In this document: positions 10,773-13,483 of the stretch, piece after piece
Position numbering within the stretch: the first letter of the stretch is position 1
Layout of the letters: each line of letters begins with the position of its first letter
Source of the DNA: Candidatus Manganitrophus noduliformans
Lineage (GTDB): Bacteria; Nitrospirota; Nitrospiria; SBBL01; Manganitrophaceae
DNA: 64,000 nt
Assembly: GCF_012184425.1 (NCBI RefSeq)
Contig: NZ_VTOW01000003.1
Coordinates: 620,001-684,000 of the forward strand
Reading direction: 5' to 3'
Notes under the pieces: generated by a model
Database searches by the model: none
Told to the model about the DNA's origin: nothing
Seen by the model: only the letters and a program-made list of their open reading frames with translations
Made by a program: the position numbers and the translations under genes

Positions 10773-11026
10773 AGTCCGGTCATTGAGCCGGTGACAAATT
10801 GTGTCCTCTCACTAAGTAATCTACTTCCGGTAAGCCATCCTTCAACCCCATCTTTCTCTCCCGCGCCCAAGGTAACGGGGCATCCCCATCGTAAGCATTT
10901 GGATTCTCATCGGAAATCAATCTTCTCGACATCAACCACAATTGATCAACGATGGCATTTCACTTGCAAATTCCTGGGATTAAGGGAATTTCCTCCACGG
11001 CTACTTGAATATTAGGGAGAGAAAAA

Positions 11027-11803
11027 ATGCAAAAGACATATGGCCCAAAAGCGGTTTGTCAATCTGTGGGTATTTCACAACGCCAACTCGGTTATTGGGG
11101 AATGATCGGCGTGATCAAACCGACGAAGCAGATGCACGGTGCGAAGGTATTTAATCGGTACACAGATGAGGATGTCGAAACCTTAAAGAAGGTGAAGAAA
11201 CTGATTGAGGAAGGTTTTTTCGTCAGCAAGGCCGCTGAAAAAATTCACAAGCTGAAAGAGGCGCTCTCTTCCCCTTCTTCTGGCCTTTCTTCCGGAATGC
11301 CGTCTCCAGAGCAGAATGGGACCCATTCTCATCAAGAAAATGGACACCGGGGCCTTTCTTCCTCGCTCTATCTGGAGGTTCGACTTGCCGAGGAATTGGC
11401 AAAATTAAAGCAGCAGTCGTTTCCGCTGGCATGTATGGCGATTCAAGTTCTCTTTCCTTCTTTTATCAAACTTCCTCATCTAAAAAACGAGATCCTCCTG
11501 AAGCTCTCATTGAAATTCGCTTCGATGTTAAAGTCATCCGAGGTGATCAGCTACAAGAAAGATTCCATTTTCTTCTGGCTGATGCCGAATCGAACGATTG
11601 AGCAGGCCCGGCTTCTTTCCAAAGAAGTAAAAGAGATGATTGAAGGATCTGAATGGGAGGTTCAAGATAAAAGATTCAAGCTGCAAGCGGCCTTTGGCTT
11701 TAGTGACTCCAATACGCCACCCCGGAAAGAGGGTAATCTTCTCACTGCCGCGGAAGGAGAACTGTTAGGACAAGGGTTACGGAGAAATCGGCTGGTTCAA
11801 TAA
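11027..11803 (+). CDS. MerR-type regulator fused to a degenerate GGDEF-like domain
   Basis: 258 residues. Residues 1-70 form a MerR winged helix-turn-helix (YGPKAVCQSVGISQRQLGYW...FNRYTDEDVETLKKVKKLIEEG). A Ser/Pro/Gly-rich linker (about 75-105) leads to a C-terminal domain with the layout of a diguanylate cyclase: RLAEELAKLKQQSFPLACMAIQV (first strand), then YKKDSIFFWLMPN where RYGGDEFxxxLP is expected, AARL-type helix, and TAAEGELLGQGLRRNRLVQ resembling the family's C-terminal GRNR end. The GGDEF active-site residues are missing, so it cannot be a normal cyclase; a nucleotide-sensing role is inference. RBS GGGAGAG is good. Confidence 0.75.
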   Translation: MQKTYGPKAVCQSVGISQRQLGYWGMIGVIKPTKQMHGAKVFNRYTDEDVETLKKVKKLIEEGFFVSKAAEKIHKLKEALSSPSSGLSSGMPSPEQNGTHSHQENGHRGLSSSLYLEVRLAEELAKLKQQSFPLACMAIQVLFPSFIKLPHLKNEILLKLSLKFASMLKSSEVISYKKDSIFFWLMPNRTIEQARLLSKEVKEMIEGSEWEVQDKRFKLQAAFGFSDSNTPPRKEGNLLTAAEGELLGQGLRRNRLVQ

Positions 11804-12674: not shown

Positions 12675-12970
12675 CTTTAATTTACTTTTAAATCATTTCA
12701 TTTATAAATCACAACAAAAATATTTATTGAATTCAGTCAGCATTGAGATATTTTGTTAGAACAGAGGCGAAACGTTGATACTTCCCAAATGAACATATAT
12801 GTGCATCAGTTCAAAACTGCACACATGCTTTTTCCAGAAAGTAAGATCTGTCCACCTCTCTTTGAAATTTTTCTTTTTAAATTAGGGGCTTATATTCTAG
12901 GTGGGTATGACTCGCTTGGGTATTTCTCTTGCATCAAAGAATGGACGCACTCAAACCGCTGGAGGAGTTG
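12675..12970. other. AT-rich intergenic region
   Basis: About 300 bp, visibly richer in A/T than the flanks (long A/T runs between 12660 and 12900). It holds the divergent control region of the barrel gene and the response regulator. I see no gene or clear promoter hexamers beyond AT-rich tracts. Short open frames here lack ribosome sites. Confidence 0.5.
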
Positions 12971-13483
12971 ATGGTCTCTAAAAGAACAATCCTAATTGTA
13001 GATGATGAGATCGGACCGCGTGAATCCCTGAAGATGATTCTGAAACCCTTTTACAATGTTGAGACCGCTGAAGACGGCATTAAAGCCCTTGAGATTATCC
13101 GAGAGAAGGAAATCGATCTGGTGACGCTCGACCTCAAGATGCCGGGTCCCCATGGCGGGGAAGTGCTGAAGCAAATCAAGCAAAAAAATCCCGATATTGA
13201 GGTGTTGATTATTACCGGATATGGGAGCTTAAAGAGCGCGATCGATGGGATTCGACATGGCGCTTGCGATTATTTGATCAAGCCCTTTAATATTTCGGAA
13301 ATTATCAACATTATCAATAAAGCGCTTAATAAAAAGAAAAAGATGGAAGAACTGAAAGGTTTCCTCAGTGAGATCGGCAGCACATTCGGCGAAAATGCAA
13401 GCCTGGAGGAGATCAAGACTTATTTTAAAGAACAGCGGGAAGGGTCAAAAGAAACGGGCACCGTTTCCAAGCAAAGGAGTTAA
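12971..13483 (+). CDS. Response regulator (single receiver domain)
   Basis: 170 residues from the ATG at 12971, chosen because GGAGGAG lies directly upstream; an earlier in-frame ATG at 12929 lacks one. Residues 4-122 are a CheY-type receiver: acidic pair DDE (ILIVDDEIG), phosphoacceptor Asp in LVTLDLKMPG near residue 53, conserved Thr (ITGYG) and Lys (LIKPF). The remaining 45 residues are helical and charged, with no DNA-binding domain. No histidine kinase is adjacent, so its partner is elsewhere. A small membrane ORF follows. Confidence 0.92.
   Translation: MVSKRTILIVDDEIGPRESLKMILKPFYNVETAEDGIKALEIIREKEIDLVTLDLKMPGPHGGEVLKQIKQKNPDIEVLIITGYGSLKSAIDGIRHGACDYLIKPFNISEIINIINKALNKKKKMEELKGFLSEIGSTFGENASLEEIKTYFKEQREGSKETGTVSKQRS

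Follow-up and report, generated by a model that had tools for sequence, protein, structure and literature searches.

A MerR-type regulator with a degenerate GGDEF domain in Candidatus Manganitrophus and a related family of Nitrospirota

Results

A MerR head joined to a GGDEF-like domain

The stretch of DNA analysed here (the window) covers 64,000 nucleotides, contig C3:620001-684000, of the 5.17 Mb genome of Candidatus Manganitrophus noduliformans. Positions 11027..11803 (+) hold an intact open reading frame of 258 residues, with an ATG start and, immediately 5′ of it, the sequence GGGAGAG, a plausible ribosome-binding site. The product comprises a MerR-type winged helix-turn-helix (HTH) head (residues 1-78; 11027..11260, +), a poorly conserved linker (residues 79-112; 11261..11362, +) and a degenerate GGDEF domain (residues 113-252; 11363..11782, +), the last supported by profiles, alignment and fold comparison. 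A fusion of this kind had been proposed in a first-pass annotation of the sequence, and is borne out by Pfam, ten homologues, an AlphaFold2 model and profile comparisons. Of the named relatives found, the closest is Candidatus Manganitrophus sp. isolate GAC4, whose genus belongs to the phylum Nitrospirota (PMC9040806); its orthologue shares about 94% identity.

The DNA-binding head suggested earlier is supported by Pfam MerR_1, which matches residues 8-71 of the window protein above its cut-off (E 2.1e-9; 37.8 versus 21.6 bits) and is matched by all 11 family members, and by the order of helices and wing in the model. In MerR proteins the DNA-binding domain is typically followed by a long dimerisation helix (PMC9909328). 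The AlphaFold2 monomer of the window protein has a helix at residues 66-80 followed by a low-confidence stretch at 81-109, and no long dimerisation helix is predicted. The linker, described as flexible in the first-pass annotation, is indeed predicted to be disordered at residues 81-109 (pLDDT <50). Two cysteines are invariant in 11/11 members: residue 11, in the head, and residue 136, in the first strand of the GGDEF-type domain.

The same genome encodes a head-only MerR paralogue of about 95 amino acids, 52% identical to the head (G000:C3:380365-380583; L078:8348-8635). It sits inside a chemosensory cluster, beside CheA, CheW and MCP genes, a placement shared by head-only MerR genes from six of the class's families (f1, f7, f9, f10, f11 and f12); in a further family (f5) no CheA, CheW or MCP match was found near the head-only gene. 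The retention of a DNA-binding protein in such a cluster merits separate attention.

Distribution and selection

A search for proteins with the same two-domain order, one of the checks suggested with the original annotation, yielded ten homologues: four orthologues from the genus and six proteins from another family of the class, hereafter the sister clade, which share 30-33% identity with the window protein. Across the 270 class genomes and 396 sampled phylum genomes searched (at E ≤ 1e-22 for the phylum), no fusion was found outside the two families. Other phyla were covered by one pattern scan. Weak MerR matches from Gammaproteobacteria and FCPU426 (L042-L046) proved to be other MerR proteins lacking a GGDEF domain. 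The fusion gene was not found in one further genome (G002), whose assembly gave no recG orthologue either.

In a tree of MerR heads the fused heads form one clade (support 97/94), apart from the head-only paralogues, so that the fusion appears, most simply, to have arisen once. The open frame is intact in all members. The degenerate domain is more variable than the head, and 67 of its 137 columns are invariant among the five genus members. Its dN/dS is 0.12-0.14 within the genus (three comparisons where computable) and 0.12-0.23 within the sister clade; for the linker, in pairs that had diverged sufficiently, the values are 0.17-0.40. By this measure, the degenerate domain is maintained by purifying selection.

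Gene neighbourhood

The genus gene is flanked by rpmB on one side and a convergent outer-membrane protein gene on the other, within a wider order that is conserved and functionally mixed (recG, rpmB, outer-membrane protein, receiver, recN, groEL). This looks like plain synteny. A receiver-domain protein with a C-terminal extension is encoded within 12929-13483, and is found near the fusion gene in four further genus members as well. The PilZ (6528) and MshEN (4554) genes listed earlier are present in the window (Pfam), but their value as functional context is unsupported: the genome has 25 PilZ matches (and 48 GGDEF matches), so a PilZ gene within 64 kb is unremarkable.

Downstream of the sister gene, and on its strand, come genes encoding a GGDEF-HD-GYP protein, a TonB-dependent receptor, an ABC substrate-binding protein, a hybrid histidine kinase and a receiver-HD-GYP protein. 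Judged by its intact RYGGEEF motif, the GGDEF-HD-GYP protein appears active. One sister genome (G038) is without the GGDEF-HD-GYP gene, and the genus gene has no such neighbour.

The C-terminal domain is homologous to GGDEF

The Pfam GGDEF profile falls below threshold against the window protein alone (E 0.12) and matches 7 of the 11 members (best E 4.8e-7). The NCBIfam model for the diguanylate cyclase SiaD reaches all 11 at E ≤ 1 (best 2.8e-8). When compared with solved structures, a profile of the family matched GGDEF proteins, with SiaD (7e6g) the best at E 2.3e-9; against the class genomes it found GGDEF-type proteins at 3e-16 to 1e-10 through the C-terminal part only. We also built a profile from the five genus C-terminal domains, so that the homology call does not lean on the sister clade, and this aligned to four canonical GGDEF domains with an hhalign probability of 88.9% (E 2.4e-6). 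The related GGDEF_2 profile (PF17853) matches just two of the 11 members, with a best E of 0.071 against 4.8e-7 for GGDEF.

The window protein was modelled as a monomer by AlphaFold2 with seven homologues, giving pLDDT of about 80 at residues 131-230, lower values at the start of the domain and about 45 after residue 230. The matches listed by Foldseek for this model were GGDEF-containing structures (best E 1.1e-7), and the matches listed by VIA-align were likewise GGDEF-containing entries, among them 3ign (Z 17.0, rmsd 2.5 Å, 148 residues). A monomer model of a sister member was better (mean pLDDT 79.7) and superimposed on PleD with Z 17.9 and 2.9 Å over 146 residues. On these matches the predicted fold is that of GGDEF, as the order of secondary structure noted at first reading had suggested, and a different fold for the domain was rejected.

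Taking together the ten homologues of the same architecture, the AlphaFold2 model and the genus-only profile comparison, we conclude that the C-terminal domain is homologous to GGDEF. The tail LRRNRLVQ, likened earlier to the GRNRV end of the GGDEF family, carries no weight here, being absent in G001, G004 and the entire sister clade, and was dropped as evidence.

Loss of the catalytic site

Alignment with canonical GGDEF domains, including two encoded in the window's own genome, places YKKDSIFFW (residues 176-184) in the position of RYGGDEF, as previously noted; the degenerate signature KKDSIF (residues 177-182; 11555..11572, +) stands where YGG(D/E)EF is expected. None of the 11 members has a GG(D/E)EF signature. 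The first metal aspartate is replaced by Q in the genus and by K or R in the sister clade, and the nucleotide segment FKxxND..GH..GD is shortened in all members, with part of the nucleotide loop deleted. Diguanylate cyclase activity is very unlikely given these losses, which upholds, in slightly softer terms, the first-pass statement that catalysis is ruled out. As both clades have lost the catalytic residues, the loss appears to be older than their split.

A second degenerate GGDEF domain, with GGGSTF replacing GGDEF, is encoded elsewhere in the same genome (G000:C3:82933-83406, −). It forms the end of a 1284-residue frame that also contains kinase-like and receiver-like sequence.

The c-di-GMP inhibitory site differs between the clades

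All six sister proteins have an arginine on the helix following the signature position, at residue 200 in window numbering, which we take to be the counterpart of PleD R390. They also share the motif RAYD (RxxD), whose arginine and aspartate precede the signature position by 9 and 6 residues, as has been described for PleD (PMC2170427). Further upstream the sister clade keeps RSRR, which places arginines 14 and 11 residues ahead of the metal position; in tDGC the secondary-site R115 lies 11 residues before the metal ligand D126 (PMC4215984). Thirty-four of the 137 domain columns are invariant in the sister clade, so the conservation of the inhibitory site (I-site) among the six proteins in part reflects relatedness. 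Each conserved I-site residue is, however, the canonical one as well. RxxD alone is no guarantee of binding, since YfiN keeps the motif and does not bind c-di-GMP (PMC3838380).

In the window protein, the RAYD of the sister clade is replaced by KSSE (residues 169-172; 11531..11542, +). All five genus members have K/R/Q-x-x-E in place of RxxD, E in place of the helix arginine and K/H-x-x-Q in place of the upstream RSRR; I-site arginines are absent save for isolated cases, such as the R at position 169 in G004, and position 172 is E rather than D in all five. The earlier suggestion that the domain may sense a nucleotide therefore fits the sister clade, with its I-site in 6/6 members, and does not fit the window protein at the canonical sites, lost in 5/5. 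The accompanying suggestion of a protein signal fares better: because every recognised I-site residue is replaced in the genus, a role in dimerisation or in binding a protein partner is likelier for the domain of the window protein.

Conserved elements upstream of the gene

A putative sigma-54-type −24/−12 promoter, TGGCATTTCACTTGCA, lies at 10953..10968 (+) and is kept in all five genus members as TGGCATTTC(A/C)CTTGCA, 73-77 bp before the ATG. The element matches the sigma-54 consensus and its spacing. Sister copies carry TGG(C/T)A-N6-TTGC(A/T) at −63 to −73 in four cases out of six, and a fifth (G040) is off at the last base. A sigma-54 gene is present in 4/4 genomes checked. Genome-wide, a stringent sigma-54 pattern is not enriched (4 matches versus 4 for the control), so the case for the promoter draws on its position and conservation.

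Two further conserved elements lie upstream in the window, an imperfect dyad GTGACAAATTGTGTC at 10791..10805 and a dyad AAGTAATCTACTT at 10814..10826, either of which could be an operator or enhancer site. Upstream of the sister gene the dyad is TACATTGAACAANCATGTA; in four sister genomes the form TACATTGAACAANCATGT precedes the −24 element by a constant 48 bp. Its longer form has a single occurrence in each of three genomes searched with a tolerance of up to 3 mismatches. The dyads are possible sites for the regulator itself or for an enhancer-binding protein. A regulon defined by the genus dyad was rejected: other copies had two mismatches, and none had a sigma-54-like site in its own 3-kb locus.

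Discussion

We read the product of this frame, from its sequence and predicted structure, as a transcription regulator whose GGDEF pseudoenzyme would serve in dimerisation or partner binding. Its winged HTH would bind DNA in the manner of MerR proteins, with the dead GGDEF domain apparently standing where other MerR proteins carry a dimerisation helix and a ligand domain. Supply of dimerisation to the MerR head by the GGDEF domain fits best, since the long helix through which MerR proteins dimerise is not predicted. In the ancestor and the sister family, c-di-GMP at the retained I-sites may bridge two GGDEF domains; c-di-GMP crosslinks GGDEF domains at their I-sites in the inhibited dimers of tDGC and PleD (PMC4215984). 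Bridged domains would bring two heads together and so gate DNA binding, the target perhaps being the dyad in the gene's own sigma-54-type promoter. With the I-site lost, as in the Manganitrophus genus, the domain would either dimerise constitutively or offer a protein partner a docking surface. We regard this account, a c-di-GMP-gated ancestor and sister family with loss of the I-site in the genus, as the best explanation, at a probability of roughly 0.55. The more specific proposition, that the I-site, a feedback brake of the enzyme, was turned into a switch for MerR dimerisation, and that in the manganese oxidisers the ligand site later disappeared while the domain was retained to serve a different signal, is tentative, and we would put it at rather worse than even odds.

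The domain might instead be a platform for an active GGDEF/HD-GYP protein, resembling MlrA-DgcM-PdeR with part of the partner fused on, and with no direct ligand in either clade. The active-looking GGDEF-HD-GYP protein encoded beside the sister gene would suit such a platform, as would the E. coli precedent in which a GGDEF protein directly co-activates a MerR-like factor (PMC5052742). This leaves unexplained why the sister clade retains all the residues that contact c-di-GMP, and neither G038 nor the genus has the neighbouring gene; we consider it unlikely. Much the same standing attaches to the idea that the window protein controls its DNA binding through a nucleotide (c-di-GMP, GTP or ppGpp/pppGpp) bound at some site other than the canonical ones. 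The fold search returned PDB titles that include PleD with c-di-GMP and with ppGpp or pppGpp, along with 3qyy, a complex titled ‘novel interaction mode’, and the c-di-GMP-responsive MerR protein BrlR binds its ligand through the DNA-binding domain (PMC6028453). Set against these are the losses in all five genus members: the signature and the metal aspartate are gone, as are part of the nucleotide loop and all recognised residues of the I-site.

Least probable, and in our view a long shot, is that the domain is a decaying, functionless remnant, which would leave the head as the one part that counts, as it is in the head-only paralogue of the same genome. All recognised functional residues are lost and the domain varies more than the head, as decay would predict, but the genus dN/dS of 0.12-0.14, the 67 invariant columns and the frame kept open in all members are at odds with it.

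Several elements of this system are already known: the pairing of MerR and GGDEF as separate proteins, catalytically dead GGDEF receptors and a c-di-GMP-responsive MerR protein. PucR/CdaR regulators differ from the MerR-GGDEF proteins in their HTH and domain order; they resemble them in joining an HTH to a GGDEF-like domain (Pfam GGDEF_2), for which no specific function is reported (PMC7652997). The E. coli MlrA-DgcM(-PdeR) system likewise couples a MerR-like factor to a GGDEF protein as direct co-activator (PMC5052742), although there the proteins are separate and DgcM is an active cyclase, whereas the window protein is one polypeptide with a dead domain. Caulobacter PopA has a catalytically dead GGDEF domain and, like the sister clade, keeps RxxD, which the window protein has lost; PopA, a response regulator paralogous to PleD, acts in CtrA degradation and is not a MerR DNA-binding protein (PMC12564702). 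BrlR of Pseudomonas aeruginosa is a MerR-type regulator in the c-di-GMP field, but it binds c-di-GMP in the DNA-binding domain, has a GyrI-like C-terminal domain and lacks GGDEF (PMC6028453). In Streptomyces BldD, c-di-GMP joins DNA-binding domains, as proposed here for the sister clade, although with unrelated domains and a tetrameric c-di-GMP (PMC4151990). In the literature searched, we found no relevant paper on a MerR protein fused to a GGDEF domain, which may exist elsewhere, and none linking Nitrospirota, c-di-GMP and MerR.

Degenerate GGDEF domains are common and, to our knowledge, little is understood of how they acquire new roles; this family may illustrate the conversion of an enzyme into a switch. 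With one clade holding a c-di-GMP site and the other lacking it, gain or loss of ligand control is testable on a few purified proteins. If the I-site did become a MerR dimerisation switch, the two clades would form a natural before-and-after series of the rewiring of a ligand switch. The family also offers a way to approach c-di-GMP-linked control of genes in the Manganitrophus group, given the many GGDEF and PilZ matches in the window's genome.
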